Shown here: positions 1,664 through 59,969 of the stretch, piece by piece
Position numbering within the stretch: position 1 is the stretch's first letter
Layout of the letters: each line of letters begins with the position of its first letter
Origin: Anastatus disparis
Taxonomy: Eukaryota > Arthropoda > Insecta > Hymenoptera > Eupelmidae
Direction: 5' to 3'
Assembly: GCA_017163975.1 (NCBI GenBank)
Contig: JAFFSR010000353.1
Coordinates: 898,001 to 962,000 of the forward strand
DNA length: 64,000 nt
Position numbers and translations under genes: made by a program
The notes under the pieces: model-generated
Databases searched by the model: none
Told to the model about the DNA's origin: nothing
What the model saw: only the letters and a program-made list of their open reading frames with translations

Positions 1664-1676
1664 TACTCCCCCCTAA
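1664..1676 (-). other. Polypurine tract of the Gypsy element
   Basis: On the minus strand this reads TTTAGGGGGGAGT immediately before the LTR start. A tract at this place primes plus-strand DNA synthesis in LTR retrotransposons. Confidence 0.6.
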
Positions 1677-4074: not shown

Positions 4075-4091
4075 CTATTTTTTTTGCTATC

Positions 4092-5678: not shown

Positions 5679-5930
5679 TTGATCTTGTTCTTAAACCCGA
5701 AGTCTAATTCCCTATAAACTATTCCGTACGTATCTATTTGTGTATTGTTTGCTGCGTATAATTTTACATGCGTTGCTTTTTTTTTTTACTATTTTTTCTT
5801 TTCGGAACTAATGATACTTCCGCACCCATATCCACTAAAAATGCTTCTTCCGCTGCTTTGTCAATAACGTGGAGGTGTATGCTCTCTGTGTCCGACGAGG
5901 TTGCCCCCTCCACCCGCCGGATTGGGAGTT
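5645..5930 (-). pseudogene. pol: Gypsy aspartic protease remnant
   Basis: The minus strand encodes AFLVDMGAEVSLVP, where the usual D-T/S-G is D-M-G, then a flap region and ILGGDVI, the second conserved box (normally ILGxDxL). The frame is broken at T-rich homopolymers near 5780 and 5942. The altered active-site triplet and the frameshifts make a working protease unlikely. Retroviral-type proteases cut the Gag-Pol precursor. Confidence 0.7.
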
Positions 5931-6153
5931 TAAATGCGTTTTTTTTTTACTAAGGTTTCTACCGTTAGACGTCCGTCGTTTATCATTTCTAACGCTATTT
6001 CTCCTTTCTATGCCTCGAGCAGGCGATTTCGATCTATGCTTAGGCGGAACAGACTCATGCCTTCTATCAAAGTCAGTCCAATCGCATGGTTGTTCACACC
6101 TATATGCTTTTATTCCATACTGAGCGTGATATCTACAATAGCGTTTCGTTCTA
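5931..6153 (-). pseudogene. gag: Gypsy Gag C-terminal zinc-binding remnant
   Basis: A Cys/His cluster of the form C-x2-H ... C-x3-C (CRYHAQYG, then RCEQPC) is encoded around 6075-6140, followed by Arg/Ser-rich sequence. This is the expected position for the nucleic-acid-binding part of Gag between capsid and protease. It is out of frame with the upstream gag, which ends at 6154 near a duplicated ctattatt word, so a small insertion may have caused the shift. Confidence 0.5.
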
Positions 6154-7281: not shown

Positions 7282-8556
7282 TTTGTGATCAGAGGTTATG
7301 TACTATTAATCAATGGTAAGTCTACGCCATATATATTAACCGACCCTGATGATATCAATCAGTCCTATATTGACTAGAGTGTATAAACAATTAAATACAC
7401 GAAATAAATAAATTAATACGACACTATAATAAATAAATAAATAAATAAATTACGTTACACTAACAATCAAATTAAACACGAAAATACGCACATAAATAAA
7501 CAGTTATTGTTTAAAATTACCGTTCAGGGTCACTCGCAATAGGTGTATAGAGCCTACGCGAAACAAAAACATGCACAAAATTACGCCGATAACTATTTAC
7601 AATTCATGCCCTTATATCGTCCGAACTTTAAAATATTTTGTATTGTGTGCGCAATATACGAACAAAATTAACTTTATTTTATTTCGCGATTCACTAGCAT
7701 GCGTGACCTCCGCATACCCCTTCGAGAACAATCTAGGAGATACACAAATGTAATGAGTAGATGTGTTCTCTCAGAGGTTATACCTCGGCCCAAACATGCC
7801 AGCAAAATTCATTTGTTTTTCTCTTCGACCTTACTAAAACCTTTTATCCGTTCGCGATTTATAAATTACTTACACGATTTGTTATTTTTCACGCCCACAC
7901 AACACTCAACCTCTAATCACTTTGAATTTAACCGTCGCGTCGGTTTACTTTTCTAACGGTTTCGCGAATTTTCTACGCGTTTCTGTGATTTTTCTCGCGA
8001 TTTCCCGCACAATCGAGTACTATTTTTCGTTTTTCTTCTTTTCTGTTTTGCCTTTTTCTATGTATATGTATGTGTTTTTCTTTTTGCGCACAGTTTTTAC
8101 CTTTATTCTTTTTTAGGTTAATTTTTAAACTGTTTTAAAGAAACATTTTTTTTTTCTTTTTGAGAGAGATAATTCACCTATACTCCCCCCAGTCTACACG
8201 TGCATTTCAATACATTAAACCAAAACATTCAATGCTACAAGGCATACAACTACAGGTAATTGGCAAGGCCTCGATTTGTGCCCAAGTAGATGAACAAATT
8301 CAATGAGTTGGTTACACATTTCTAAACCTCGCCAAACCCATAATTGCCCTATCACAAAGCAACAACAAAAATATTTTATTCGCACGCGTAGCTGGAAGAA
8401 GCCAGCTTCTCACTAACTGTGCGTCTTAAATATTATTTATAATGTTTGTTAGTATTAAATATGTATATATACGCTATTTTTGGCGAATTTACTTAATATA
8501 TATAATGTTAGTAACTACTCTTCCGCACAGAGTATCTCACTAGAAAGAAGAAAAGG
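7282..8556 (-). other. Gypsy leader / possible 5' LTR region, no gene
   Basis: AT-rich and without credible coding. A (TAAA)n microsatellite lies at about 7430-7452. A purine run, CTGGGGGGAGTATAGG on the minus strand at 8171-8186, resembles the polypurine tract and LTR junction seen at 1664, but what follows does not match the 1368-1662 LTR. Either a second Gypsy fragment is joined here or the 5' LTR has diverged or been replaced. The small plus-strand ORFs at 7571-8116 are not supported. Confidence 0.4.
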
Positions 8557-13303: not shown

Positions 13304-14176
13304 TTAAATTAATCTTAATTCTTTTCTGTTTTTAATAAATTTTTCTTTACATAGACCTTTGGTTAATATATCAGCTATATTTTTATCAGTTTCAATTTTT
13401 AAAATATCTATTACACCATTTTCATAATTTTCATTAATATAGTGATATTGCACTTCAATGTGCTTCGAATTTTTTGTAAGATTACCAAATTTACTTATAG
13501 CTATCGCACCAGAATTATCTTCATAAATTTTAATTGGTCTATCTATATTAAATTTAAATGCATCATTCAACAAATCTTTTATAAATAATATTTCTGTCAC
13601 CGCTTCTGACATAGCAATGTATTCAGCGAAAGTTGAATTTTTTGTTACAGTTTTCTGTTTATGTGTTTTCCAATAAACTACATTACCATATACTCTAATT
13701 ACGAATCCTGTTGTGGATTTCCTATCAATATGATCACCTGCGTAATCTGAATCGACCATACAATCTAATTTTTCTTTGTTTATGTTATTATAGTAAGTTA
13801 ATTTTAAATCTTTAGTTTTGTATAAATATTTTAACACTCTCAAAGCATACTTAAAATGTGTTTCGTTGTAACAACTTTGGTATCTACTTAAATAATTAAC
13901 ACTATATGATATATCAGGTCTTGTCCCTGTACTAATGTATAAAAGTTCGCCTATTAAATTTCTATAACTAATTCTTTCATCTATTTCAGTTGCTTGTTCA
14001 AGTTTTAAACTTGTCTCTATCGGAGTTTCATAGAGCTTTGCATTTTCTAAATGATATTTCACAGCCAATGATTCAATATATTTTTGTTGACTTAAAGTCA
14101 TTACACCTTTTTCTTTATCATGATTAATATCAATTCCAATATATCCTGTTATTTTACCTAAATCTTTCAGTTGCAA
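13304..14176 (-). pseudogene. pol: Copia reverse transcriptase end and RNase H
   Basis: 290 residues beginning in the RT connection (KDLGKITGYIGIDI), then SYRNLIGELLYISTGTRPDI, and RNase H with VDSDYAGDHIDRKSTTGFV, FAEYIAMSEAV and ADILTKGLCKEKF near the end. This is the C-terminal half of the Copia polyprotein, separated from the upstream part by one frameshift near 14160-14175. The domain order integrase, RT, RNase H identifies Ty1/Copia rather than Gypsy. Confidence 0.9.
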
Positions 14177-16258
14177 ATCTGTGCATTAATTTTGTCTTTA
14201 TATCCTTGATCTTATTTTTATCTTTACAGCAAATTAAAATATCATCTACAAATACTAACATATATATAGGATCATTGCTTGTGCTATTTACATATAAACA
14301 ATAGTCATGATTGCTTCTAACAAAATTTAATTTTTTAACATAGTTATTAAATGTTTCATACCATGCTCGTGGACTTTCTCTAAGACCATAGAGTGCCTTT
14401 TGAAGTCTACATACTTTATTTTCTCCAGTTTCATAACCTTTTGGTTCATAAATATAAACTTCTGATTTTACTGTACCATTGAGAAATGCTGTCTCAACGT
14501 CCATTTGTTCTATATCTAAATTATTTACACAACAATAGCTTAACAAAATTTTTAAAGTTTGCATTTTTCCTACTGGAGAGTATACATTTTCTAAATATTC
14601 TTTTTGTTGAAAGCCTTTTACTACTAATCTAGCTTTATAAGAATTATCTCCTTTCTTTTTAAATATCCATTTAACATCAATTATTTTCTTATCTTTAGGT
14701 TTATCTACAATAGTCCATGTTTTATTTTTATTTAAACTATTGATTTCAGAATTCATAGCTTTTTGCCATTTTTTACTTTCTGTGGAGTTTATCGCCTCCT
14801 CGAATGTATTCGGTACATTAGCGTTTACATAATTTACATATATATAATGTGTTATTGGGTTACCATATCTTTCTATAGGACTTTTCTTTCTTGTTGAAGT
14901 TCTTTCAACTTCTAAATTATCTTTTCGTTTTTTAAATCTTTTATTTACATTACCAGAATCATTATTTATTTTACTATTAGAATTTTCACTATCATAATTT
15001 TCATTATCAATAATTTCATTTTCATTTTCATTTTCAGAATCGATTTTACTTTGACTATTCTTATTTTTTAAATTTAATTCAATGTAATTTTCATCATTTT
15101 GTTCAGTACAAATTAATTCTGCATCTTCTTCAACTACTTTAACATGTCTGGCATTTATGACTTTATTATCAATTAAAACTCTATAACCATTATGTGTATA
15201 ACCTACAAGTATACCTAATTTAGCTTTATCGTCCCATTTACTTTTTCTTAGTACTTCTGGTACCCTTACAAAAACTTTGCTTCCATATATTTTCAAATGT
15301 TTTACATCAGGTTTTGATTTTAAAAGTATTTTGTATGGAGTTTTATTTTCATTTGTGTTGGCTATTGTACGGTTTTTTAAATAAGAAACTGTTTTCATTA
15401 CTTCTGGCCAATACCTTATAGGTATCTTGGCTTCTCTTACTAAACATCTGCCTATATCCATAGCTGATCTATTAAATCTTTCCGCTACTCCATTTAATTC
15501 ATGGACGTAGGGTGGACAAGGTAATAATTCAATTCCTTTGTATTTAATAAATTTATAAATTTCTTGATTTAAATACTCTTTACCATTATCACATTGCAAC
15601 TTTCTTACTCTTTTATTAAATTGATTTTCAACTAAATTTATATATTCTATAAAACATCCTGCTGTTTCAGATTTACTTTTAATACAATAAACTCTACTAC
15701 ATTTACTATAATCGTCTATAAACGTTAAAAAATATCTTTCTCCACCATAACCAGCTGTGCTGTGTGGACCATTTAAATCTGTATGAATTAATTCTAAAGT
15801 CTCAGTAGATCTAGTTTTCTTATTTTCAAACGGTACATTAGACATTTTACTTTGAATACAGTTTGCACATTTCATATTATTATTTTCTAATTTATCTGGT
15901 AAACCATTCAATAATTTTTCATTAACTAATTTATTTAAATATTGAAAATTTACATGACCTAATGCTCTGTGCCATTTTTCTTTTTCTGTTAATTTTACCG
16001 TATTTGCATAAATATTTTTACCTTTATAGTCATCAATAAAACTTTTCATTAAATACAAATTATTTATTTTTTCTGCTACAGCTACTAATTCTCTATTTTT
16101 ATTATAAATATTTGCTGTTTGATTTCTCGGTACAATTGTGTTATTTACAGTTATTTTAGAAAGACTTAACAAATTTCTACTGAATTCTTTTACATAATAA
16201 ACGTTCTTAAGATCGACTTTCTTTTCATAGTAATAAGTTTTAAAATACGTTATAATGT
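14154..16258 (-). pseudogene. pol: Copia integrase and reverse transcriptase
   Basis: About 700 residues. The integrase has the zinc module (WHRALGH, then CANCIQSK) and the catalytic triad in HTDLNGP, QCDNGKEY and NGVAERFN. The linker is Asn/Glu-rich. The RT has KWIFKKKGDN, DVETAFLNGTV, ALYGLRESPRAW and VFVDDILICC. All catalytic residues are present. The apparent start at 16325 lies inside an inserted foldback; the Copia sequence proper begins at 16258 and continues the protease frame beyond 17617. The frame ends by a frameshift before RNase H. Confidence 0.9.
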
Positions 16259-17616
16259 CCCTACTAAAAAATGTCAGGTGAAAAATCACCTGATTTTTCA
16301 CTTGATTTCTCACCTGATTTCTCATGCCAAAATCTCATGTGACTATTAGCGTAAAAAAACTAAGTTCCAAACCTATCGAAAAATTCTAAGTTTTTATCAC
16401 GGAAAACAACATTGAGAAGTATGATTCTTTTTTCATTTTTCATAATTTGAAATTGATTTTTTATACGTAGAATTTCAATTTTTTAATTTCATTTTTCTGG
16501 TCATAGAAATAAATTTCAAACCACTCTAAAAATTATAAGTCCCGATCTTATAATTTTTAACACAAGCCTCTTTTATTTATGTGAGAGAGAGAGAAAGAGA
16601 GAGAAAAACATCAAAAACACATGCACAAGAAGCCTCTTTTATTCTTTTATACACTATGAGTTGAATTAAAATGGAAAAAAAGTGTGTACATACTTTTGAT
16701 AAAACTACACTATTTATAAGTTAAGATTTTAAAGTTTTTACTATCGTAACCACGTGCGTCCGTTGTTCCTTTACACTAGAAAAAGCAACACATTTAGTAA
16801 AATGTTCCTGAGCATTGTCTCAATATAATACATCTCTCATCGTACTTTTTAAAATACAATTCGCTCAAATTTATATAAACGTAACGTGCACAGTATCGCT
16901 TGTCTTTTCTTTCTTGTTATGAGAGAAACATAGACAGAATACAATAGTTCATAAATACGAGCGTATATTTCTTTTAGCAATAGTTTGCGTTAGGCCAAGT
17001 CTGTTGTCGAGAGATATTTTCGCTTGAGGCACGAGAGGTGCCGACAGGAGGCGCATGAGTCGTTTCAGCTATAGCTAGATGTGTTGCTTTTTCTAGTGTA
17101 AAGGAACAACGGACGCACGTGGTTACGATAGTAAAAACTTTAAAATCTTAACTTATAAATAGTGTAGTTTTATCAATAGTATGTACACACTTTTTTTTCC
17201 ATTTTAATTCAACTCATAAATAGTGTATAAAAGAATAAAAGAGGCTTCTTGTGCATGTGTTTTTGATGTTTTTCTCTCTTTTCTCTCTCTCTCACGTAAA
17301 TAAAAGAGCTTGTGTTAAAAATTATAAGATCGGGACTTATAATTTTTAGAGTGGTTTGAAATTTATTTCTATGACCAGAAAAATGAAATTAAAAAATTGA
17401 AATTCTACGTATAAAAAATCAATTTCAAATTATGGAAAATGAAAAAAGAATCATACTTCTCAATGTTGTTTTCCGTGATAAAAACTTAGAATTTTTCGAT
17501 AGGTTTGGAACTTAGTTTTTTTACGCTAATAGTCACATGAGATTTTGGCATGAGAAATCAGGTGAGAAATCAAGTGAAAAATCAGGTGATTTTTCACCTG
17601 ACATTTTTTAGTAGGG
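16259..17616. mobile_element. 1.36-kb foldback inserted in Copia pol
   Basis: Arms of about 530 bp (16259-16791 and 17085-17616) are near-perfect inverted repeats, ending CCCTACTAAAAAATGTC on both sides. GT flanks both ends (16257-16258 and 17617-17618). With the element and one GT left out, the Copia protease and integrase frames are continuous, so this is the precise insertion boundary. The centre of about 290 bp is unique with no reading frame. The superfamily is not assignable; a two-base duplication and CCC ends are shared with other foldbacks here. Confidence 0.85.
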
Positions 17617-17811
17617 GTTACCTATTTTAGTAGCTTTTAATATTTTTCCATCTGGCAATTTTACATTAACTGGTTCTTTTAATACAATAAATTTTTCAAA
17701 ATAACTATCATTATTAACTATATGGTCAGTACAACCACTATCTAAAAACCAGTTTATTTCATTTTTACTTTCATTAATTTCTGTTTCTTTTACCTCATTA
17801 TGGTTTACCAT
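17617..17811 (-). pseudogene. pol: Copia aspartic protease
   Basis: Encodes NWFLDSGCTDHIVNN, the intact Copia protease active site (DSG), and continues to KIGN at the foldback junction. The enzyme processes the Gag-Pol precursor. It lies downstream of gag and, after removal of the foldback, in frame with integrase. Confidence 0.85.
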
Positions 17812-17813
17812 CG

Positions 17814-18068
17814 TTACCCATGATTCTGCATTGCGGTTGTCGTTACGTTGACTAGACGATTCTTCTCTTGGCTGACTTGTTCTGTTCTGTCCATAGCCTT
17901 GTTGTGAATACCCCCTTTAATTTGATCGTGGAAATCCTCGTTGAAATCCTCGTTGACCATGACCTCTGTTGTAATAGGCTCTTCTACCTTGATTGGTATA
18001 CGTTCCTCTACCTTGGCTGAATTGCGGTGCTCTCCTACAATCTTTCTTGTTGTGGCCTTCTTTCCCAC
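17814..18068 (-). pseudogene. Copia gag-protease linker in a shifted frame
   Basis: This frame overlaps the end of gag and carries short Arg/Gln-rich sequence followed by a stop just before the protease. It is the original linker read after a frameshift near 17915; it has no separate identity. Confidence 0.4.
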
Positions 18069-18843
18069 AATTAAAATATTGTCCTTTTGTTTTTATGCTG
18101 AAAGTGCTGACATTTCTTTTACTTTCACTTTCAGATCTTGTCATATTTTTCTCTTGAATTTTGGACTTTACATATTCTACTGTCCTTTGCTCTTCTGGTA
18201 TGACATCTATAAAGTCACCAATAAAGCTGTAACTGGGTGGCAGTGCTTTTATTATATATCTTATCTTTTCTTGCTCATTCAAAGTTCCACCAGCTGCTTT
18301 AAACTTATTATAGGCTTGTTCAAAATCTACAAAAAAATCTTCAACTTTGTCATAATTCTTCAATTTTACATCTTCTAATTTACTTCTACATATTATCTGT
18401 AGAGCTGTAGATTTTGTTGAGTACATGCTGTCTAGCTTTCTCATCATTTCATATGTTGTTTTACATTCTGTAATGTACTCTAACTGCTTATCTGATATTG
18501 AGCTTATCAGTATATTTTTAGCTTTTAAATCTGCTTTCTTCCAAACATCTTGGTTATCTGCTTCAGTTAATACTCTTATTGCTTGCTCTTTACATTCTTT
18601 ATATTCTAAAATATTCAGTAATCTGAATCCCCAGCTTGAATAATTGCATCCATCAAAAATGGGAATATAAACATCATCAATTTTTACTTGCTTAGCCATT
18701 TCTCTTTCTTTTTCTAATTTTATATTTTTATCAATTTCTTTTACTGCACTTAACACTTTTTTCAATTCTTTGAGGAAAACTTTTCTTAAACGATTTCTTT
18801 CTTCTTTAATGAGCACTATATTTTCAGCTTTTGTCTGTTTCAT
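17917..18843 (-). CDS. gag: Copia Gag
   Basis: 308 residues. The central region (FDGCNYSSWGFRLL, then KAKNILISSISDKQLEYI, and a later KIRYIIKALPPSY) is the Copia UBN2-type Gag fold. The C-terminus has a CCHC knuckle (FNCGKEGHNKKDC) whose first Cys is replaced by Tyr, fitting a TGT to TAT change, so RNA binding is probably damaged. A later in-frame Met near 18700 may be the true start, since the first 48 residues are a charged helix. The ORF then runs into Arg/Gly/Gln repeats. Confidence 0.88.
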   Translation of the reverse strand: MKQTKAENIVLIKEERNRLRKVFLKELKKVLSAVKEIDKNIKLEKEREMAKQVKIDDVYIPIFDGCNYSSWGFRLLNILEYKECKEQAIRVLTEADNQDVWKKADLKAKNILISSISDKQLEYITECKTTYEMMRKLDSMYSTKSTALQIICRSKLEDVKLKNYDKVEDFFVDFEQAYNKFKAAGGTLNEQEKIRYIIKALPPSYSFIGDFIDVIPEEQRTVEYVKSKIQEKNMTRSESESKRNVSTFSIKTKGQYFNCGKEGHNKKDCRRAPQFSQGRGTYTNQGRRAYYNRGHGQRGFQRGFPRSN

Positions 18844-19315
18844 TAAACTTTCTTTTAATTATCTTATTAAATTCACTTATTAATTTCCTTAGTGAATTCA
18901 CGTTTTTAATCTTTTTTATTTTGTCACCTTTTTTAATTTTCTCGTACAGTCTATTTTTTCGAAATTATTATTCACTTTCTGCTTCTTATTATTTATTATT
19001 TTTTACCTTTTATTCACTTGTTTTCTTTTTCTTTCCTTTTATCTTTCAGACACGTGCTCTGTTTTAACCTCAAAATAATTTTCTTCTAACCTGACTTTTT
19101 GCGACCACGTGGCTTTAATTTTTAATCCGTTAGCATAGAACGTATTTTCTGCTTAATTTTCTTCTTTTTTCTTTTTATTGATTAACACTAATTTTTCCTT
19201 TTCACTTTTCTATATATTTTTCACTTTACTTTTGCCTTTTAGTTATCTTTTTGACTTAAATAGTCTACCACGTTTTTGCTTCAATAACCACGTTTCTTCT
19301 ATTTTATCAACCACT
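18844..19315 (-). other. Copia 5' leader, no gene
   Basis: T-rich on the plus strand, without credible coding. A matching 5' LTR to 8557-8897 was expected near here but is not visible before the foldback at 19320 or after it, so it has been lost or has diverged. Confidence 0.4.
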
Positions 19316-20933: not shown

Positions 20934-22242
20934 TGGCTTCTTGCACGGCCATTGTATTCTTATAGCTGATAACATCTTTTTAGAAAAATATTATTTCGCT
21001 TTTTTGCGATATAATTTATCAAACCAAGTTTCCGCCCTTCATTTTTTAAAAATAAAATGATCCTGAATAGGAAATTTCCTTACGAAACACGGTTTTTGAG
21101 AAATTTGATTTTTTCGAACTGAGAAATTTGTTTTTCTAATTATCTTCGATTAACGCTTTTTTTTGGCTAATTTTTAGAGTTTCCGCCCTTCATCGAAATT
21201 AAATGAAGTGATCTATAAAAGGAAAACTCATTCCAATGTATGGTTTTTTCAAAAATTGTAATTTTATAAAATTATAATTTTCGATCGGTAAAGTAGCGTG
21301 AAACCATACCCTTAAATAAATTTCTATCAGTAAAAGATGATAAATATTTTGGTTCTACATTCATACGTAATTCTGTAATAAAGTTTTGTCGCAAGATTCT
21401 TATGCGAGATAGCTTCAAGTATGATGCATGCTCGCGTGATTATTCTTATGATAAGATTGCATTTAACTTTTGTCCTTCTGATGTAATTTTAACGCAAATC
21501 TGCTGCATGATTCTCACATAAAACTGCTTCAATTCTGCTGTACGTTTGCGTGTTTATTCTCATCATTAAATTACACTTAACTTTTGTCATATTTATGTGA
21601 TTCGGGGGTAAAGTGCTGCTGCAAGATTCTTATGGAAGACTGCTTCGATTCTGCTGCAAAATTACGTGTTTATTTTCGTAACATAATTGTACTTAACTGG
21701 TGTCATTCTTATGTAATTATGGGGTAAAGTGCTGCTGCAAGATTCTTACGGAAGACTACTTTGATTCTGCAGCAAGTTTGCATGTTTATTCTCGTCATAT
21801 AATTGCACTTAACTTTTGTCATTCTTATGTAAATCTGAGGTAAAGTGCTGCTGCAAGTTTGTGATGCAAGACTGTTTCGATTCTGTTATATGCTTGTGTA
21901 CTTATTACGATTCGCAGAACTGCACTTGACAATTTGCAATTCTTACGTAATTGTGTTGCAAAACTTTGTCGGGAATTATTTACTTAATTTTGTTGCTAGT
22001 GTCTGTAATAAGGTTTTTCCGCAAGTTTTCTGCAAAATATCCTCAAGATTCTGCGCATTCTTTCCGTTCCGTAGATTGCACTTTCTCTCTGCCAGAGACG
22101 TGCAATTCTGTTGCACTTATCTGCTGTGATTTCTTTTCATAAAAAACCCTATGGGATGCGGAAACAGACAGCACATGTTCTGCTGCAAGTTTTTGATTTT
22201 CAAGAAAATTGCAGCAAAATTGCGTTGACCATGTTACCAGGG
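20934..22242. repeat. Right terminal inverted repeat of the large foldback element
   Basis: Inner part 20934-21314 mirrors 987-1367. The outer part has ~116-bp tandem repeats at about 21440-21960 (attctgctgcaa words near 21526, 21641, 21757 and 21874), then a terminal segment of gcagcaa words ending CCAGGG at 22242. The small ORFs at 21845-22279 are through repeats. Confidence 0.85.
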
Positions 22243-22243
22243 T

Positions 22244-24835
22244 ATGCTTAATATATTCAATGAAATTCTTGACCAACAAACCTTTCCCGATGACTGGAGG
22301 GAGTCACTTATGATTCTAATACCTAAAAACGAAAAACACAAATTCCGCCCAATCTCTTTAATATCTTGCTTATTAAAAACGATGGAAAAAATGCTACAAA
22401 TAAGAATAACTCACTACATAGAAAGCAACCAAATAATTCCAATCTTTCAAAACGGATTCAGGCGTAATAAGTCATACACACATTGCCTTGCTGAACTGAT
22501 TACCTTAATACACAACTCAAACAATGATAACAAAGTACTCTCTGCGCTATTCATAGATTTAAGGCAAGCTTTCGACTCAGTCAACCCTGACCTCATCCAA
22601 AAAGACCTGGAATCTCTCATTATTCTAACAAAAATTAGATCATTCATATACAATCTAACTTCCCACAGAAAACTATTCTTCAAAATAAACAATGAATTAC
22701 TAGGTCCATGCAATAGATATAAAGGAGTCCCAGAAGGGGACGTACTCAGCCCACTAATATATAACCTTTACAACATAGGCATAAATTCAGAAATAAATCA
22801 AAACAACATAATCTTGCTGTTTGCTGATGATACTCTAATAGCTAACATTAATAACAATATTGAGGATTCAATTATTGCACTATAAAATAACATAAATACA
22901 ATTAATAATTTTCTAGAAGGAAAATCTTTAGAACTAAACCCCAACAAAACTAAATTAGTAATCTTTACCAAAAAAAACTTCATAAAAGAAGATTATCCCA
23001 TTATGATTAACAACCGACAAATCCTTCCTTCACCTTTAATCAAGTACCTGGGACTAATAATGGATCAAAAACTAACATGGAACCTCCACACTGAATACAT
23101 AATCAGAAAAACAAGGAAACTTATTAACGTAATCAAAATACTTGCTGGTACATGGTGGGGAGGCCACCCTCAAACCCTGCTACAATTACACAAATCCATT
23201 ATAAGAAGTAACCTCGAATACAACACCTTCCTTACTCACACTAAAGATACTCAAATTCAAATTAAATTAAACAGAGTTCAATATAAATCCATAAGAATAG
23301 CCCTGGGCTACAGAACATCCACCCCAATTAACATTCTGCATACTGAATCATGCGAAAGCCCTCTCTCAATGAAAACCCGGTACTTAGCTGAAAGATTTAT
23401 TATAAAACTGATTTCCTTGGAGGATCATCCGTTGATAAATGAATTATATGCACTACAGCTAAATTTAAATCACAAAGATAAATATAACTTAAAATTCAAC
23501 TTCATCCTACTAAAAGCCTTTAATCAATACTGCTATATGAGACAGAAAATAAACAAGCAACCATTCCCAATCCCATACAACTATAAATATGAAGCAGTTA
23601 ACTTTGATATATCAAACCAAATAAACCTTCAAATAGGAAAAAAACTCCAATTTATAAATAATCCTAACAATATGATTCAAAAATACATAAACGACTAAGG
23701 CCCAAATCATATTTCATTTTACACAGATGGTTCAAAAAATCCAACAGACAATTCTACATATGTAGGATTCGCTATTTTCTCACCAAACTTAAATATAGAG
23801 AAAATGTACAAACTCCCCTCAATCTCTTCCATTTACACTGCAGAACTCTATGCGATTAAAACAACCATAGAGTTAATCAACAACAAAAACATAAGTAACT
23901 CAACCATTTTTACAGATTCTAAGAGCTCACTAATGGCTCTCACAAATTTCTCCTCCTTTACAAAAGATGCTTCTTTCCTCATACCAGAAATCAAAGATCT
24001 CATATACACAATCAACAACAAAAATCTAAACTTAGACTTAGTTTCGGTACCCTCCCACATTGGCATTGATGGCAATGAAAGAGTCGACTCCATGGCCAAA
24101 AATGCCCCAAAAGTTGGCCTCCTAAATGAACTCAAAATACCTTATTCAGATATTTTTTACAAAACTAAAAAAACACTTAACAACTCCTTTTCAAAATTTA
24201 TTAAAAACCAAATACATATCAAAGGCACAAACTACTTTAAGAACTATTTCACAAAAATCCAAGACAAACCTTGGTTCCATAATTTCAATAGGCAAAGAAA
24301 GCATATTACCACTATCCATTTTTCTCTCAACTATAGACTCTTTAGAAAAAACATAATAAAAGATCCAACTTGCCAATGTGAAAGAGACATCCAAATAATG
24401 GACTACATAGTATGGTCATGTAACTTATACGAAACAGAGAAAAACCTTAATTAAAAAACTAAAAAAAGCTAAAAGTTACCCTATTACCGTCATAGACATC
24501 TTAAAAAAGCCTAAATCTAAAATAGCTAGCTGCCTCATAGAATTTATAAATCAAAGCTCATTATTCATTTAAAAAACCCGCCATTAAACCAAACAAAATT
24601 AAAAATCTAACCTCCAAAGCAACTAAACGGACGCTAAAAAACATTAATCGGGAATTTAAATCAAACACAAGAAAATAGAAACCAACATAAACGAGTTAAA
24701 AAAAAAAATAAATAAAAGGAAGAAAAAACAACTCTGCAAAATTTGGACAGAGCCACCTGGTAATGGCCTAAGACTAGTACTTCACTAATCAAAAGGCCAA
24801 TCAAACTAGAAGAAGAAGAAGAAAAAAAATAAACT
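22244..24835 (+). pseudogene. LINE with reverse transcriptase and RNase H, 5' part cut off
   Basis: Three open stretches in one line: 22244-22885 and 23003-23698 (RT) and 23702-24454 (RNase H and zinc-like tail). RT boxes are FRPISLIS, FIDLRQAFDSV, GVPEGDVLSPLIYN and FADDTLI; a thumb region has YLGLIMDQKLTW. RNase H has YTDGSK, ELYAI, TDSKSS and SHIGIDGNERVD. Stops at 22885 and 23698 break the frame. RNase H after RT points to the I/R1/LOA-like clades. A (GAA)n tail lies at about 24811-24828. The sequence begins abruptly at the TA next to the large foldback, so the endonuclease half should lie beyond that element, outside this window. Confidence 0.85.
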
Positions 24836-46943: not shown

Positions 46944-46958
46944 TTAATCAGATAATTA

Positions 46959-49900
46959 AGGTAAATGTCCCAGTGACTGTACATGTCCCTGTAACTGAAC
47001 ACTAATATAAGATTTATTAACTATTTAAGTAGTAGATAAAATAATATAATACTTTAAATGATTTTAATTTCTTTGGATATTAGGCTATAAATATAATATT
47101 AATAATAATATAAAATTATTTATTTAATAATAGAAAACTTTGTTCAAAGTATAGCGAGACGGTTCCAAGTCTTATACATATGACCTCTTAACCATATTGC
47201 TAAGAATAACGCTGGAACTCGTAAGCACATAATTTAATCAATTTTAATTTTTCATTGGTGATGTAAGGGTTTATATAATCAATGGAATATTTAGAATCAA
47301 TTATAAAAATTAAATTAGTTTAAAAAATGTTTAATTTATCGTAAATTTGATTGTTTATGTAATGGTGCAATAATTTGAATGATTGGCGGGTAATTGAACG
47401 AGCGTGCAGCTGTCGATACAGTTACCGACTGAAGGGCTTAGTAACTAGACGCACGTGTAAAATTTTTCTCCAAAATAAAGTGCGACGAAATTAAGTGCGA
47501 CGTAATTAAATGCAATGCGTAAGTATTTTATTTATTATATTATTTATTTAATGTCAAATAATTTTTTTTATTTTTTATTAACTTTTCTTCATATAAAAAA
47601 AAACTTTTCATTCATAATTTAAACTTTTTTTAATTCTAACCTCAAAGTAATGTAAAAAATCTTAAATTTTTTTTGTAGTGCTATTATACCATTCAGTTTT
47701 GTTTTATTATTTTTATTAATTATTTACAGCCAAAAAATTAGTAGATAAAATTAAAAAAAGATACTCTCAAGAAGATGTATATAAAGCTTTAAATGACATT
47801 GATAATGGCATGTCTCTAGGAAAAGCATCTACAACTTATAGCATTCCTAAGAGTACTTTGCATGCAAAAAAAAACTTTACTATTCCGGTAGAAGCAGCAA
47901 GAGGTCCAAGTCCATATTTAACGTGGGATGAAGAAGATTTACCTGTTAAATGGATTCAATACTCTAGTGAGCCAGGCTTCCCAATAACAAAAACAATTAT
48001 TTTACAATGTGTGCAGAAGCTTGTGCGAGAATTGGAGAGAAATACTCCTTTTAAGGATGACAAACCTGGAAGGCATTGGTACGAAAACTTCTTGCGTCGA
48101 CATCCACAAATTTCTCTAAGAACTTGTCAAAATTTAAGTGTATCTCGAGTTGCAGCTGGAGAAAGTGCTTTACGAAAATGGTTTCAACAAGTCAAAGCTC
48201 ATTTAGAAAAGTTGAATCTACTTAATATTGATCCATCAAGAGTTTTTAACATGGATGAAAGTGCATTTTTTTTAGTGCCAAAAGGAGAAAAAGTGCTCGC
48301 AAGGAAAGGCAGCAAATCTGTTTATAAAGTTACACATGGAGACGAGAAAGAAAGCATAACAGTATTATTTACTGTTAATGCTGCTGGATTGATGTTACCT
48401 CCGTTAATATTATTTTGGTATAAAAGGATGCCTGCATCTATAACTAGTAAGTTACCTCCTTCTTGGATTGCTGGAAGCAATGAGAGAGGCTGGATGACCG
48501 CTGAATCTTTTTATTCGTACATCAGCACACAATTTCATCCTTGGCTTAAAAAAAATAATATCCAGCTTCCAGTTGTATTATATGTTGATGGGCATGCATC
48601 ACATATGACATTACAACTCTCAAAATTTTGTTCAGAGAATGGCATAGAATTGGTTGCATTGTTTCCTAATTCAACACATATAACGCAACCTCTAGACGTA
48701 TCTGTATTTCACCCTATGAAAAGTGAATGGAAGAAAGCTGTCGATAACTGGAGGATTAATGAACAGACACAAAAATTAAAAAAAGAAGATTTTGCTCCGG
48801 TACTGAAAAGTGCTATAGATTCAATGAAGAATTTGAATTTAACAATTATAAATGGGTTTAGAAAATGTGGTCTATCACCTTTTTCTGATATCGCAGTGGA
48901 TTACAATGTTCTCAATAAAAAGAGAAACATGATGTCTGAAAAATCAACAAAATCAAATGGATGTGTCATTGAAAAGAAAATTCCTCAAACCTTAAATGAA
49001 GAGTGTGAAAATCAGAAGTTTTTAACACTTTTTGAAAGTAGACTGCCTACTACTGTACTTGAAGATTTCCAAAAAGCTCTTTTGACGGGAAGTCAGATCT
49101 CAGATTTAGCTGACGAGAATCTGTATAAATATTGGATAGACCTAAAGAGTTAATATTATAAAATCACTTTGAATATTATCAAATATTATTGAACTTATAA
49201 TTAAATATTATTTATATAATTTGTATTTAAATTTGATAATAAAAATAAAATATTTGATTTAGGTAATGTGAGTGATACAAATAAGTGTGATAATGGAACT
49301 GAAACCTCCCCTAAAATAGATATAGATATTAATAATCTAGATGTAATTATAGTTTGTGAAAATAATGAAAATTATTTAGGGATTAATTCAACAGATGTTC
49401 GCCAAGATATTTCTAAAAGTTTGTATCTATTTTAATTTTATGTATATAAAAATATCTTCTTGAAATCATATTTTAATAATAAACTTGTAATTATATTTTC
49501 AGATGATTTGCAAACCACAAGTTCACCTGTCTTTGGCTCAAGTAAACCAATTCCATATGAAATGATACAAGTGGAAGATGGTAATAATTTAGATAAACAT
49601 GTTAGTTCAGATGTTTTCAACACGAATAAGCCTATTCCATATGAAATGGTAGAGGTCGAAGGTGTTTATAATATAAATACAATTATAACAGATCCAGAAG
49701 AGGATGAAACAAATCAAAATATTTCTGAAATATTTGAAGTTTTCGACAAAGGTTACAAAGTTTGAAAAGAATTAAATCTCACAATATTGTTAATTACAGA
49801 GTTGTAAAACTAATTTTTTTTTCTTTAGGTTCAAGCAGCTTTGATTTTCTTTTAAATGAATCAAATAAAATGCATTCACGTGAAAAAAGTAATTCTCTTC

Positions 49901-51559
49901 ATTTTATAAAAGCTGCATCCAACGAATCCAAAATATTGAAGGAAGAAGTGCCAGTGCGTGAGTTAAATAATACTATTGTGTGTACGTATCTACATATCTT
50001 AAAATATTTTATTTGAATGTTGTGAAACTAGCCCATTTGTTTTTTTCTTAATTTATTTTCAGATGAGTCAGTGAAAATACAAGCAAGTAAAGATGATTCT
50101 TTTGCTCCTACCAAAGCTGCTTTATCTCCAACGAAGCCTTTAGTTTTAACCAAACAAGTGTCCCTTCGTGAGTCAAAGAATACTTATGTAGGTATGTATG
50201 GAAATAATATTAATAATAATAAAAATTATATAATGATAATATAAATATCTTATTCAAGTATTGCGGTATAACTAATTTTTTTATTTTTCTTTTCTTAGGT
50301 ACAGAATCAAGTAAAGATTGTGATTTATTTGCAAATAATAGACAATCCTGCTCAAATTTAATGGTTTCAATAGATGCACAATTAGAAGCTTCTACTTGTT
50401 CAGAAGCTGTTGTTTCTGAAAAGTCCATGAAGCTTGTGGAAAAAAATGAGCAAATAAATAATAATATAGCTGAGAAACCACCCGAAGAAGTTTTGGATTT
50501 ATCTTTAAAAATTGAAGAAAAAATTTCTGCTGAAGAGTTGGAAAAAAATGCCTTTCCTCTTATTCAAAGAGCACCTTTAAAAGAGATTCAAAATCAAGGT
50601 AATCTTGGTGATAAAGTTAAATTTTATTGTTAAAAACATTTTTTACATTTCGGAAAATTTTTTTTAGATTCAGGACAAAATAACATTTATGAATTGCAGC
50701 AGACAGTTCCTGAACCATTTAAAAAAGCTCTTGTATGGCCTAAACAGTTTACTACAAAGAAGACAAAAAATAAAAAAGAAGTACCTGCGTTATGTTCAGA
50801 GGAATGGCAGGAGCATCATATAAATAAATTGAATGAAAAATTAAAAAAGGAAGAAGATATACAGAATAGAAAAAGGGCAAGAGAAGAAAATAAGCTTAAA
50901 AAAGCATCAGAAAAAAAGGAAAAACAAGAGAAAAGGAGAAAGATTAATAAAGAAATAAAAAAATTACAAGCTGAAAAAAAATTTTTTGCTCCATAAAAAA
51001 AGAAAAAATTTAAAATTTTAATGAAAACAGTTTAATTCAATTATTTATTAAATATTATCAAATGCTTTAAAATATTAAATGTATAAAATGTAAAAAAATT
51101 TTAAAAGTTCCTTCATAAATTATTAAATTTAAGTATTATTTGTGATATTAAAGTTAATTTAAATTAATATTGTAATTATATTTTAAATATAAAATATTGT
51201 TTTAATCAATAAAAATCGTTTTTTACAAATTTAATAAGTTTTTTTAAATTTATTAATGAGACATGTATCCATTTCTTGTCCTCCTCAAAGCACGTCTATG
51301 TATAGGGACATACGGAATTGGACGCTGGTGCAAACAAATTTTACCCGTTCACTTATTGGTACGTGATCTCGTTTAAGAATATGGATTATTTATATTAATT
51401 AACAAATTGTAATTTGAAATTCTATTTGTATTCTGCTAAATTGATGATATTATTAAAATATGGAACTATTTATTCTATAAAAAAATTAATATTAACATGT
51501 TTGACACTAGTTTTTTATGTATTAGACGCTTAAGCGTGCCGTCATTGGGACATTTACCT
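46959..51559 (+). mobile_element. Complete pogo-like transposon, 4.6 kb, TA duplication
   Basis: Terminal inverted repeats AGGTAAATGTCCCAGTGAC (left) and AGGTAAATGTCCCAATGAC (right, read inward), flanked by TA at 46957-46958 and 51560-51561. Further GTCCC-type words lie just inside both ends (near 46983 and 51300), as subterminal transposase sites often do. It contains one multi-exon gene with an undamaged frame. It is the only structurally complete autonomous DNA transposon in the window. Confidence 0.85.
47515..50996 (+). CDS. Pogo-like DDE transposase, eight exons, 912 residues predicted
   Basis: Predicted exons: 47515-47518 (ATGC), 47730-49148, 49263-49418, 49503-49751, 49829-49981, 50063-50191, 50299-50598, 50668-50996. 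All seven introns are phase 1 and the internal exons from the third on are multiples of three. The four-base first exon has a GTAAGT donor and gives MPKKLVDKIKK, the psq-type helix-turn-helix start. Exon 2 carries the CENP-B-like domain (about residues 70-150) and the DDE core: NMDESAFF, YVDGHASH and QPLDVSVF (Asp as third residue). Exon 4 has two PIPYEM repeats; the last exon has FKKALVWP and a Lys/Glu coiled coil. Donors GTTAAT (exon 2), GTTTGT (exon 3) and GTTACA (exon 4) are weak, so exon 2 may also end at TAA 49153 (short form). Confidence 0.8.
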
Positions 51560-51561
51560 TA

Positions 51562-56038: not shown

Positions 56039-58560
56039 TCAAGGGAAAGGTAGTGCGAATATGTTGATGCCTTGAATAATGCCAACGATGAAGAGTCTCT
56101 TAATGATGATGGTAGACCGTTCCATAGTTGCGATGACACAACCAGGAACGATCTTTGCAATGGTGGTACTTTTTCGAAAGAAATTTAATCTATAGAGCAA
56201 TGAGTGACTTCTGTTACACACATGCGCAATTTGGTCCTTCCAGTTCAACTTACTATCAAGCCATACACCAAGACTACGAACAGAAGATTCAAACTTAATA
56301 AGATCACCGTTTATTGGAACACCAGTGATGTGTAATGAGGGCAGCATATTGACATAGAAATAAGATCCAATAATAATAGCCTTTGTTTTGCTCACATTTA
56401 ATTTCAGATGATTTTTTGTCGCCCAGTTAACAATACTGACAGCTTGATCACTCATGAGAGCAGTAACAGAAGCCAACTTAGCAATTGGGAAGTGAATGTA
56501 CACCTGAAGATCATCAGCATAGATAAGATGCTGCACATTGGCATGGAAGTCAGCAGCCACATCATTGATGTATATAGAAAACAACAGTGGACCAAGGACA
56601 GAGCCCTGGGGAACACCAGTATTTAATGTTACATAGTCAGATGCATTACCATCTGCATCAATAACAGCCTGCTGTCTCTCAGAGAGATAAGACGCAAACC
56701 ACCGCACAACTGAATGCGAGATGTCAAGAGAAGACATTTTTCTGAGCAGAGAGACATGGCATACCGTATCAAATGCCTTGCTGAAATCAAATAGCAACAG
56801 CAACGTCACGTAGCGTCTGTCCATATTGCGTCTAATGTCCTCAGTTAGTTTCAGTAGTGCGGTCTGAGTACTATGTCCAGTTCGAAATCCAGTCTGATAA
56901 GGGTCCAGTAGCTGTCGCATAGTCAGGTAATTGTAGAGTTGATCATGGACTAGACGTTCAAGAACCTTGGACATAAAAGATAATAAAGAAATAGGCCTAA
57001 TGTCACCAAAAGCTTGAGGAGAGGAGATTTTGTTTATTGTAGTGACCAGTGAGATCTTCCAGCATGAAGGAAATAAGGATTCACGCAATGAGTCGTTATA
57101 AATGCGACATAACAAAGGCCCAATGACCGGAAATGCTGCACGGACAAAAGATTGAGGAACAGCATCAAACCCTCTGGCCTGTGAAGCTGAATGACAAACA
57201 GCCATCCATACCTCCTCCAAAGTAACTGGATTAAACTTAAACATGGGTTTAAGTGGTTCATCTAGAGCAAGTGTATTCATGTAATCAGAAATGGAGGGGA
57301 CCAGAGGATCAAACGCAACACCACCAAAATACCGATTCAAATCATTAATTGAAAAAGAATGTCGAGAGTCACTACTGCTGGAACATACGCCCAGGTTCTT
57401 GAGTTCTTTCCAGATCTGTCTTGCATCAGTAATCTTAGATGGTCTGTCGTGGTAATACAGTAATTTAGCTGATTCGATGCATGAATGGGCCCGATCTCGA
57501 GCATCTCTATAACATATAAGATCAGCACGCAGCCTAGTACGTTTGAAGCGTCTGTAATGCCTATCTCTCTCAGAGATTAAGCGGTGATGCTCAGAGGTAA
57601 ACCACGGACGATGACTCTTGCTCTGTCGAACACGCCTAACAGGCACAAACCGTGAGATAGCTTCATTAAGATGAGTGTAAAGACATTCAAGGCGAGCCAA
57701 AAGAGAAGAGTTACCGTTACACACAGCACAATTCAGTGATCGAAAATAATCAAGAAGAGCAGCTTCATCAACCGCTTTATAATCATGATAAGTAAAATTA
57801 TTAAGTGTAGGCCTAGAGAGAGACGACTTCACAGTCGCAGCAATAAAATCATGTCCGTCAATAAATGGTACATCAGTCTTCCAATAGTCAAGCAGTAAGT
57901 CATTGGCATCGACAAGGCACAAGTCGAGCCACGTATCAGAGGAATAAGTATGATGCGTAGGTCCATAAGGCACTGAAAAAAGTGCATTTTCCTTAATAAG
58001 GCTCTTCAGGAACATAGAATCATCAGATTCAGAACACAAATTAGTGTTGAAATCTCCTAAAACTACCTTAGTACTATAATTGTGCATATGAGTGGTCAAA
58101 TCAGGAATAAAGTCTGTGTTGGCCAAAAATGTAGCGTGAGGTGGCCTATAAACAACACCAACGAAAATGGGTGAAGCCAAGTCAGATGAGTTGACCTCAC
58201 AGAAGAGATACTCAGGTAAACCAGGCTTACCACTCCAGCTTCCAGAGGATGAACAGAGTCGCACAGAAGTGAGAGAGCAGTGTACAAATAAAGCAACACC
58301 ACCTCCCCTGGTGTTACGATCCTGTCTATAAAGCACATACCCATCAAGAGCAATCAAAGAATCACAAACTATCTGGCCCAGTTTGGTCTCAGTAACAGCT
58401 ATTACGTGGAAATAAGGGCGAGAAGCCAAAAAGAGTCTAATCATCTCAATGTGCGCTCTAATAGAGTTGGCATTGAAATGACAAACTCTGAGACCATCCT
58501 TAGTAGTGAAATGATCATGAATGACCGATGAAATAGTATTGTTAGAAGGAAGAAGTGTGT
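56039..58560 (-). pseudogene. LINE ORF2: AP-endonuclease and reverse transcriptase
   Basis: The first in-frame ATG (58444) lies inside the endonuclease; the frame is open further upstream and includes CHFNANSIR, the conserved start of the endonuclease fold, and it overlaps the end of ORF1. Endonuclease motifs: AVTETKL, GGGVALFV, VGVVYRPP, VVLGDFN, SDTWLDL. RT motifs: IRPISLLSFMSKVLER, YQTGFRTGHSTQTALL, LLFDFSKAFDTV, GVPQGSVLGPLLFSIYIND and YADDLQVY. After SKLNWKDQI the expected C-terminal part is missing and the frame closes early, fitting an internal deletion near 56170. Confidence 0.88.
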
Positions 58561-58605
58561 TAGAGTGAGAAGGAAGAGAGAATGAGCTTACCCCAGTGTC
58601 AGATG

Positions 58606-59286
58606 TTAAGTGGCTACATCGTCGTTGGCTGATATCAATGAGAGCTTTGCTAAAAAAGCATCCAAGTCGTCATCCGATGCAACACGAATGGCTGCATCCT
58701 CCTTCTTCCTTCTGACGAAGATCTTACCATCACGCACAAATGTAAGGAAGTTGTACCTCTTATCTTTGGCCTTCCTGAGCACTCTCAACTTCAGTTGGTG
58801 CAATGAGTGTGGCAGATATTCATTGATGTTGATCAAGGACGGAATAAGTGTTTCTACTGATAAAGTTCCCTGCAAAAGGTCACTCCTGATCTTTGAGGTA
58901 TGAAGGCTACCCATCCTGATCTTTGCTCCGATGACAGATCGCGCCAACGAGGCACTCTTCATAGTGACGAGCAATGGCGTCGTAAGCAGCGGAGGACCAC
59001 CTTGAGATGTTGTTGCAGAAGGAGCAGTACTATCATCAGTACTACGAGCTGTAGCAGGTCGCGACAAAGGTCGAACCGAAACAATGTCACTGAGAGCAAA
59101 ACCAGAATTAAGAGAAGCCAATACAGCAAAGACACCGTTCTTCAGATCGTTAAATTCATTAGGAACCAGGCCTCCAAACACCAAGTCTGATGCACGCTCA
59201 AGACGCTGCTGGCCAGCCGCCAAAACATCACACTGTTGCCGTAAAGATTTATTGAGCTTGTCCAATTCCTGTAGTTTAGCAGCCAT
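58606..59286 (-). CDS. LINE ORF1 protein
   Basis: 226 residues: an N-terminal coiled coil (LQELDKLNKSLRQQCDVL), a Ser/Thr-rich linker, and a C-terminal domain with ININEYLPHSLHQLKLRVLRKAK and GKIFVRRKKEDAAIRV, as in ORF1 RNA-binding proteins of several insect LINEs. The frame is intact. It ends four bases into the ORF2 frame overlap, so ORF2 is probably made by reinitiation or frameshifting. Confidence 0.8.
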   Translation of the reverse strand: MAAKLQELDKLNKSLRQQCDVLAAGQQRLERASDLVFGGLVPNEFNDLKNGVFAVLASLNSGFALSDIVSVRPLSRPATARSTDDSTAPSATTSQGGPPLLTTPLLVTMKSASLARSVIGAKIRMGSLHTSKIRSDLLQGTLSVETLIPSLININEYLPHSLHQLKLRVLRKAKDKRYNFLTFVRDGKIFVRRKKEDAAIRVASDDDLDAFLAKLSLISANDDVAT

Positions 59287-59969
59287 AGGGTCAGATAGTA
59301 AAAGAGAGTGAGAGAGAAAAAAAGCGTTAGAGTTTCCAAAACTTGAGAGAACTGCAAAACAGACACAAAATAATAAAGTAATACATTTTTTGAAAAATAC
59401 TGAGTCTTGAAATAAGAAAAGAAAATTTAAAAAAAGGAAGAAAATTGACTAATGTATTAAGTCAATAAGTTTAACAAGTCTATTGGAGAAGAGTAGGAAA
59501 GTGAAAAATTTTAGGTTAGTAAAAACAGTGTAAACAATGATTGCAGTGGAAATGAATTAATTGTTGAAGAAAGCTGTGATATAGTTCTCAAAACTGTGAG
59601 TTAAAAAAAATCTGTCAACCACACTAATTGATGTAATATCGTGAATGGGATACATAAATTTTTTCATCGAACTCGTTTCTTATTAAGAATAATTGATAAA
59701 AGTTATATTTGTGGTTACAAATTTTATTTAATATTAATATTGTTTCATAATTTAGTATAATATTTATTTATGAAAATAAATTAATGTATTATTTATTATA
59801 ATAAAACAATAAAATGATTGATCATATTTATAACAGTTTTTGACTACTAACCGTCCTCAATAAGCGGAAAAATTAGTCATTTTCTGATTAATATTGGTTA
59901 TTTCTTGGTCATTTTTTCTAAAACTGGTCAAAATATGACCAAATAATAGTGAAATTTTCTACCAGGGTA

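Follow-up and report, generated by a model that had tools for sequence, protein, structure and literature searches.

An eight-exon pogo-superfamily transposon of Anastatus disparis probably joins a conserved catalytic exon to a conserved C-terminal module through drifting phase-1 linker exons

The usual picture of a DNA transposon is a compact unit with one reading frame. The locus described here, located in a 64,000-nucleotide stretch of Anastatus disparis contig JAFFSR010000353.1 (the window), raises the question of whether such an element can carry a single transposase gene split by seven introns, and what the exons downstream of the catalytic part contribute. Taken as a full account, we consider it probable that positions 46959-51559 hold a cut-and-paste DNA transposon of the pogo superfamily that is structurally intact, was mobile recently and has one eight-exon gene.

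The boundaries of the element were defined by its terminal inverted repeats (TIRs). The sequence AGGTAAATGTCCC was found exactly at 46959-46971 and 51547-51559, the sole two matches in the window when up to 2 mismatches were allowed, and the arms (26 nt including the TA) were 88% complementary. The TIR-flanked span of about 4.6 kb is bordered on both sides by a duplicated TA (Table 1), as the first-pass annotation had claimed. A further repeat with ATGTCCC was seen by eye at 46983-47000, next to the left TIR.

Table 1. Features of the element, in window coordinates.
Feature	Position	Strand	Evidence
TA target duplication, left	46957..46958	.	sequence
Left TIR	46959..46982	+	inverted-repeat search, TIR match
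Exon 1, ATGC (start codon and one base)	47515..47518	+	ATGC/GTAAGTA unchanged in 9/9 aligned rows
Exon 2, HTH_psq, HTH_Tnp_Tc5 and DDE_1 catalytic core, DD35D	47730..49148	+	Pfam, dN/dS 0.13-0.16
Intron 2, weak donor GTTAAT, in-frame stop 49151-49153	49149..49262	+	sequence, donor score
Exon 3, linker	49263..49418	+	open frame, counterparts in copies, gene model
Exon 4, linker, two PIPYEM units 84 nt apart	49503..49751	+	open frame, repeat search
Exon 5, linker cassette, second in-frame donor after 49957	49829..49981	+	open frame, gene model
Exon 6, linker cassette similar to exon 5	50063..50191	+	open frame, self-comparison
Exon 7, linker, with EVLDLSLK	50299..50598	+	open frame, genome matches
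Exon 8, C-terminal module PFKKALVWP...SEEWQEHH, Lys/Glu-rich end and stop	50668..50996	+	homologues, dN/dS
Right TIR	51536..51559	-	inverted-repeat search, TIR match
TA target duplication, right	51560..51561	.	sequence

Exon 2 matched HTH_psq, HTH_Tnp_Tc5 and DDE_1 above the Pfam cut-offs, with D177, D288 and D324 as the catalytic triad (DD35D). Thus, a DDE_1 domain with a DDxD triad, N-terminal DNA-binding domains of the HTH_psq/HTH_Tnp_Tc5 type and, in both the window copy and a second copy (L021), short TIRs with a TA duplication place the element in the pogo superfamily. The domain set and DD35D spacing, which together with the TA duplication are shared with the Fot-like elements in the available text of PMC7386202, would fit Fot-like members of this superfamily; CENP-B_N, which marks Tigger/pogoR, was absent from the Pfam matches of exon 2 up to E 1. 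At about 24 bp, the TIR falls short of the 40-60 bp that this text gives for most Fot and Fot-like elements, a length that the word "most" leaves not strictly defining, whereas 4.6 kb and 912 aa lie within the superfamily ranges given there (1.20-5.20 kb, 300-977 aa). The words intron, exon and splic do not occur in the available text of PMC7386202, and a seven-intron gene is not treated in it.

All seven introns of the proposed gene are GT-AG and phase 1, and the eight exons give 912 codons free of stops, 438 of the residues being encoded downstream of exon 2. The proposals of the first-pass annotation on these points (a chain from an ATGC first exon with a GTAAGT donor to the stop at 50996, phase 1 at every junction, 438 residues past the catalytic part and two PIPYEM copies in exon 4) were all borne out. 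Two donors, at 49957 and 49981, would end exon 5 in frame and in phase 1, and subfamily B (described below) has a counterpart only for 49981. Exons 5 and 6 were similar to each other with a score of 45, reached in 0 of 2000 shuffles, and look like old tandem duplicates.

The chain was compared to chance by use of a dynamic-programming gene model that was blind to the proposed exons, with 200 dinucleotide shuffles of the linker as the control. By this approach, introns 2-7 were recovered in the same chain from exon 2 onward, with two differences: the exon 5 donor was placed at 49957 and the exon 8 acceptor 6 nt downstream. The four-base exon 1 was outside the reach of the model and is supported by its conserved alignment rows. 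The real sequence scored 140.4, compared to a mean of 46.1 for the shuffles (sd 1.9, maximum 61.7), none of which gave six or more introns all in phase 1. Phase 1 was also in excess among the shuffle introns (237/258), as it is imposed by the reading frames of exons 2 and 8.

A search of the assembly for copies with the same exon set detected both a near-identical element and a more distant subfamily. The former, copy C300 (L021), is 98.7% and 99.1% identical to the window element over two long stretches, is located at another site with TA on both sides, and holds exons 3-8 within its TIRs, minus a stretch spanning the exon 5/6 border. Subfamily B (L024, L025 and L026) is 70-78% identical over long stretches with most splice sites kept, and matches to exons 3, 7 and 8 were found downstream of exon 2 in all three copies. 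In addition, each of the five genome matches to exon 7 proved to be a copy of the window element. These layouts agree with the claim that exons 3-8 are parts of the transposon. The L024 gene model had seven introns, all in phase 1; the models of decayed copies were unclean, with non-phase-1 introns in L025 and L026 and poor models for L028 and L019, and phase-0 introns occurred in the models of L027 (1/5) and L031 (1/3).

Exon 2 was disrupted in every other close copy examined (L021-L026). A run of T in this exon was one base shorter in L021, L022, L023 and L025, had other lesions or lengths in L024, L026, L027 and L031, and was read through in L028, L029 and L030. A programmed frameshift at this run was rejected, as the lesions vary and three loci read through; a slippage hot spot is simpler.

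Introns had been regarded as unusual for pogo/Tigger transposases. While the seven-intron gene was confirmed, this view did not hold for the intron after the catalytic exon: of 9 distant loci listed, 8 had a phase-1 donor at this position, so that this predicted intron recurs in distant families of the same genome, and its presence in ant and bee transposases is also suggested.

Selection differed markedly along the gene. The dN/dS was 0.13 and 0.16 for exon 2 and 0.12 for exon 8, compared to 0.74 for exons 3, 4, 5 and 7 pooled against L024 (range 0.50-0.96 for exons 3-7). Whole-region pairwise values were replaced, since they could not be trusted for exon 8 of L023 or, owing to misalignment of a duplicated cassette, for exons 4-7 against subfamily B. 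Indel counts from those alignments share this fault (87 and 6 for exon 4, but 8+16, 2+23 and 8+17 for exon 5, some of which are not divisible by three), and exon lengths were therefore compared between gene models. Homologues of exon 8 were found in 8 of 14 proteins and in 25 of 51 protein tails, and 26 of the 137 proteins retrieved carried a PFKxxLFWP...W module resembling exon 8; exons 3-7 had no convincing homologues outside the A/B subfamilies among the 51 tails. Thus, exon 8, which had been counted among six accessory exons, is an integral conserved C-terminal module, as constrained as the catalytic exon and present in many insect transposases, and exons 3-7 are a fast-drifting linker under weak residue-level selection. 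Synonymous sites differed more in exons 2 and 8 (0.53-0.61) than in the linker (0.33), and introns were also less diverged; this is left unexplained by our preferred account and counts against it.

Insect proteins annotated as 'tigger-like', 'jerky-like' or unnamed transposases (P0024 of Temnothorax, P0105 of Wasmannia, P0071 of Parnassius, P0050 of Coccinella and others) were 44-61% identical in the catalytic part in those examples. Their linkers, compared as proteins only, gave no convincing alignment with that of the window element, and several carry additional C-terminal parts that the window element does not have. A protein search with residues 470-912 scored 7997 candidates, none of which reached E 0.01, but it was uninformative, probably because simple words flooded it. 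PDB sequences gave two matches (both E 0.26), and none of the 8 and 79 pattern matches to viral contigs, obtained with exon 2 and alignment A1, respectively, was confirmed.

That the transposase simply stops at 49153, with exons 3-8 being non-coding or an unrelated neighbour gene, is suggested by the stop of the exon 2 frame and by the weak intron 2 donor (-5.3 bits by simple weights). This is very unlikely, however, given the constraint on exon 8 and its homologues at the C-termini of insect transposases, and a gene-model score far over the shuffles; a neighbour gene was rejected on the basis of the location of exons 3-8 within the TIRs of other copies, the exon 8 constraint and the exon 7 matches. 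Direct joining of exon 2 to exon 8, both phase 1, with exons 3-7 seldom used and hence drifting, would preserve the frame and is consistent with the high dN/dS and lack of outside homologues of the linker. We consider it improbable, since exons 3, 4 and 5 keep open frames and splice sites in L024, with lengths that differ by 0, 93 and 36 nt, all divisible by three, compared to 37, 1, 4, 7 and 0 for introns, and since exon 7 is partly conserved (61% identical over 72 codons). Homology of exons 5 and 6 to the B cassettes is partial (32% over 38 codons for exon 6). The suggestion that the element is becoming a host gene draws on the many introns and on a window copy that is open where the examined near copies are broken. 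A domesticated gene would have lost its TIRs and mobile copies and be under purifying selection along the whole protein; by contrast, this element retains TIRs and TA, has a near-identical copy at another site alongside decayed ones, is weakly constrained in its linker and has introns common to other mobile families. Domestication was thus rejected as highly unlikely.

An addition to the preferred account, rather than a replacement for it, is that the cassettes and the weak intron 2 donor form a regulatory device through which several isoforms are made, one of them a core protein that lacks exon 8 and could hold transposition in check. The first 18 bases of intron 2 are identical in the window element and L024-L026, while the intron overall differs at 23-28% of aligned sites, every inner exon is symmetric and exon 5 offers two donors, and retention of intron 2 is plausible from this conserved weak donor. 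Duplication alone accounts for the symmetry, however, and AT-rich introns often have a stop shortly past the donor, such that we regard this device as possible but doubtful. In the Drosophila P element, intron retention gives a short repressor. Its transposase is also spliced and its superfamily is unrelated to pogo; a stop in a poorly spliced intron would likewise shorten the protein. We know of no cassette duplication in the P element or BuT2. The latter, in the available account a hAT element of five exons, likewise has a spliced transposase gene but belongs to an unrelated superfamily.

Cassette multiplication, which had been anticipated from the exon symmetry, was detected directly. A tandem duplication of cassettes bounded by introns, with 415-bp spacing, is present in L024 and L026, the L024 copies differing at 2/117, 2/81 and 2/88 positions, and the 84-nt PIPYEM unit of exon 4 occurs one, two or three times across copies.

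The predicted transposase has two constrained blocks, of which exon 2 serves DNA binding and DDD catalysis and exon 8 is the C-terminal module; fast-evolving small phase-1 exons join them. All exons would normally be spliced to give a 912-aa protein, which would bind the TIRs and carry out insertion of the element at TA. A role of exon 8 in assembly or partner binding is proposed, and the linker may be mainly a flexible spacer, its rearrangement tolerated because the linker introns share one phase. Where the weak donor leaves intron 2 unspliced in part of the transcripts, a core protein of 474 residues that lacks exon 8 may be made.

The large and last pieces of this gene are strongly conserved, and the small middle ones drift and are duplicated with the protein frame unbroken. 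Since the conserved C-terminal module sits behind several introns, it would escape a survey confined to the catalytic frame, and constructs made from that frame alone might miss a needed part of the transposase. Copies within one genome display duplicated cassettes, fused exons and altered repeats within an exon, all in a mobile gene, and are a small natural system for studying intron gain and exon duplication. More tentatively still than for the isoforms, there may be a pogo clade in insects whose transposase evolves by modular exon duplication, its cassettes being multiplied, fused or lost at little cost to the frame, and in which the stop that comes with a conserved weak donor also yields a self-controlling core protein that lacks the C-terminal module. 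If so, the catalytic exon and the conserved C-terminal module would bracket phase-1 linker cassettes.

The pogo-superfamily transposon was found to carry AGGTAAATGTCCC exactly at both termini, with inverted-repeat arms of 26 nt (including TA) that are 88% complementary, and a TA dinucleotide borders it on the left and right. The eight exons placed by the first-pass annotation held: GT-AG borders are present, all introns are of phase 1 and the spliced frame has 912 codons. The DDE_1, HTH_Tnp_Tc5 and HTH_psq domains all lie in exon 2, the catalytic exon, where 35 residues separate the second and third catalytic aspartates.

Transposon in the window and exon layout of related loci in the same genome
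Feature	Locus	Position or length	Remarks
Transposon	window	46959-51559	ends are inverted repeats with flanking TA
Phase-1 xG/GT near YWxxxK end	L009, L011, L013, L016, L017, L027, L028, L029		
Linker exons before Lys-rich last exon	L013	309 nt	gene model
Linker exons before Lys-rich last exon	L011	600 nt	gene model
Linker exons before Lys-rich last exon	L009	240+330 nt	gene model
Linker exons before Lys-rich last exon	L016	204+162 nt	gene model
Linker exons before Lys-rich last exon	L017	306+261 nt	gene model

Introns 2 to 7 were examined by use of a gene finder written for this analysis, which combined codon log-odds with hand-set generic splice weights and was not supplied with exon positions. 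Started within exon 2, it recovered introns 2 to 7, all in phase 1, and differed only in preferring donor 49957 over 49981 at exon 5 and in placing the exon 8 acceptor 6 nt downstream. With a coding training set of the catalytic exons of four other loci and of the window element itself (its exon 2 included), and with introns and flanks of the same element as noncoding set, the window model scored 140.4, compared to a mean of 46.1 (sd 1.9, maximum 61.7) for 200 dinucleotide shuffles of the linker, none of which gave six or more introns all of phase 1. The subfamily B copy L024 scored 127.1 compared to a shuffle mean of 42.8 and maximum of 58.5 (0 of 200). Phase counts alone weigh little: 237 of 258 introns in the shuffles were also of phase 1, a result imposed by the frames of exons 2 and 8.

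A six-frame search of the 939-Mb assembly (window at C346:898001-962000) with exon 2 gave at least 104 matches, from 90 scored candidates; loci L021-L031 were studied closely and L009-L020 and L032 more lightly. The 5' end of the element was found at nine places with 88-100% identity, and at weaker places with 76-84%. One copy, L021 (C300), is identical to the window element at 98.7% over positions 1-3011 and 99.1% over 3112-4601 and is flanked by a TA duplication of its own; its exon 2 has a one-base shift within a T run, and an in-frame deletion joins its exons 5 and 6. With such a near-identical copy elsewhere, the earlier suggestion that the element is becoming a host gene was not supported; the element has the anatomy of a transposon and has moved in the past. 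The copies L022 (C38) and L023 (C61) have about 94-98% identity in long pieces and are both broken. For the subfamily B copies L024 (C275), L025 (C1) and L026 (C117), identity to the window is 70-78% over long stretches and 66-69% within the cassette region. Among the window and L021-L026, only the window has an intact exon-2 reading frame. The T run of exon 2 after GAAAGTGCA (~48260-48275) is a hot spot of one-base lesions across L021-L027 and L031, being one base shorter in four copies, while four further copies have different lesions or run lengths there or close by. A further locus (L043, C225:9056000-9061400, reverse complement 172-1150) is an internally deleted, MITE-like derivative that retains only the 5' 660 bp and 3' 286 bp of a B-type element. 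The window also holds large frames at 2350-7302 (-), 13304-18858 (-), 22229-24454 (+) and 56039-59448 (-), the translations of which look, by eye, like Gypsy-type, Copia-type and non-LTR retroelement proteins.

Constraint was compared exon by exon between the window and L024 by dN/dS, as single-pair counts on few codons. Exon 8, previously counted among the accessory exons, gave 0.12, as low as catalytic exon 2 (0.13 and 0.16 in two stretches off the frameshift), and has homologues in insect transposases; it therefore belongs to the working protein. By contrast, the linker (exons 3 to 7) gave 0.96, 0.50, 0.94 and 0.74 for exons 3, 4, 5 and 7 (pooled, 0.74). The accessory exons are thus two different things, a constrained exon 8 and a drifting linker. 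When compared to C-terminal parts of insect transposases, the exon 8 start beat all 300 shuffles in 8 of 14 proteins (P0002-P0007, P0009, P0011), and in 25 of 51 tails, two of them from L027 and L031 of the same genome, none of 200 shuffles reached its score. For exons 3, 4, 5, 6 and 7, the score was reached in no more than 1 of 200 shuffles with 3, 3, 0, 0 and 2 of the 51 tails, which is not convincing. An FKxxLxWP-like motif was found downstream of the core in 26 of 137 retrieved proteins, and a Pfam scan of the post-core region with this motif gave no match above cut-off in eight long relatives. Behind the exon-8 module, residues 638-699 of P0009 have a weak PHD-like match (E 0.029, below cut-off), and P0002-P0007 have a common unnamed C-terminal end of ~100 residues.

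Exon 8 gave 17 genome matches at 14 places, ten with an exon-2 match nearby. Two of the other four were inspected: at C56:1523774 only the 3' part of a B-like copy is left, and the exon 8 at C275:1072974 is family-D-like, with no exon 2 in the 7 kb read (C135:3385285 and C56:1534371 are the remaining two). All five genome matches of exon 7 are copies of the window element, so no host-gene source for this exon is visible among them.

The linker exons look to be kept as coding, because introns 2-5 and 7 keep their splice positions in subfamily B and because of the pattern of exon lengths, modest evidence from three exons and five introns: window and L024 differ by 0, 93 and 36 nt in exons 3, 4 and 5, and by 37, 1, 4, 7 and 0 nt in introns 2, 3, 4, 5 and 7. 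Synonymous divergence for this pair is higher in exons 2 and 8 (0.53-0.61) than in the linker (0.33), and it also exceeds the divergence of introns 2-5 and 7 (0.18-0.30). When the window is compared to the B copies L025 and L026, divergence is just 5-8% in the first 360 bp (46959-47319) but 12-35% in later stretches upstream of exon 2 and ~0.55 at exon-2 synonymous sites; candidate causes are gene conversion, constraint on a promoter or binding site, and recombination.

Multiplication of the symmetric cassettes, proposed in the first-pass annotation, was supported by a tandem duplication of 415-bp spacing in L024 and L026 and by variable numbers of the PIPYEM unit of exon 4 (two in the window and L021, three in L023, one each in L024, L025 and L026; none in L022, where exon 4 is mostly deleted). 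The alignment of L025 has the tandem duplication plus an additional insertion; by eye, the L025 linker contains an inserted foldback element whose inverted ends match (reverse complement, roughly 4545-4800). The L024 gene model has eight segments, the end of exon 2 followed by 156, 156, 117, 129, 117, 246 and 350 nt, with all seven introns in phase 1. Only 2 of 117 sites distinguish its paired 117-nt exons, the adjoining introns show 2 differences in 81 and 2 in 88 sites, and its 129-nt exon, which resembles exons 6/7 at the start and exon 4 at the end, would be the product expected of unequal exchange. Models of decayed copies are less clean, with two (L025) and one (L026) introns not of phase 1, and that of L023 ends upstream of exon 8. 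Exons 5 and 6 of the window element are mutually similar (0 of 2000 shuffles), and introns 4/5 (0 of 300) and 4/6 (2 of 300) stand out among 15 pairs compared. As judged from these sequences, cassettes have been duplicated.

The exon 1/intron 1 border, ATGC/GTAAGTA, is the same in all nine aligned rows. Family D (L028, L031) reads ATGCCTAAA, without an intron at this position, which suggests that intron 1 was gained in the A/B lineage. A phase-1 xG/GT lies within 5 codons of the YWxxxK end in eight of the nine non-A/B loci with the exon-2 end examined (L015 was not scorable). With the modules of relatives as tblastn queries, best E values were 1e-8 to 4e-12 for L009, L011, L013, L016, L017 and L032, which suggests that the last exon of distant loci is homologous to exon 8; the window's exon-8 start did not pass the shuffle test against model tails of L009, L011, L013 and L017. 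In L032 a single exon covers catalytic part and linker, and the models of L027 (1 of 5) and L031 (1 of 3) include phase-0 introns; the poor models of L028 and L019 were set aside, and L021 and L030 offered no starting point for a model. Among 67 public proteins reaching residue 470, 27 stop within 30 residues, and 17 of these, including P0024 (Temnothorax) and P0028 (Andrena), have a terminal G after S, T, C or TF plus a few residues, a loose pattern that would be expected from a frame running into the same post-catalytic donor. The predicted protein P0105 (Wasmannia) extends beyond RLSG into a linker, part of which resembles exon 3 (1 of 200 shuffles). A simple reading is that the older layout consisted of a catalytic exon, a linker and a last exon, its introns being of phase 1, and that it was elaborated in A/B. 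In the portions available of PMC7386202 and PMC8472432 the words intron, exon and splic are all absent; in that of PMC7325037, intron and exon are absent and splic occurs once, concerning SETMAR. Among open-licence papers surveyed by title and abstract start, none was seen to describe a pogo transposase with multiple introns, and an earlier description may exist.

By simple weights, the intron-2 donor is weak, at -5.3 bits in the window and -4.4 in subfamily B, compared to -3.0 to 1.4 for the others. The first 18 bases of intron 2 are identical across the window, L021-L023 and L024-L026; aligned intron sites of window and B differ at 23-28%. Retention of intron 2 would give a protein ending at 49153, with the core kept and exon 8 absent, and regulated isoforms of this kind seem rather doubtful. 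The EVLDLSLK of exon 7, which may resemble CtBP-binding motifs, has counterparts in subfamily B (EVLDLSVK), L027 (VLDLSLK), L031 (VLDLTVM) and the public protein P0012 (ILDLSNN). The gene has two constrained blocks and a drifting linker. All exons would be spliced into a transposase that binds the TIRs and inserts at TA, the standard transposition mode of the pogo superfamily; exon 8 may act in assembly or partner binding, and the linker may serve as a spacer.
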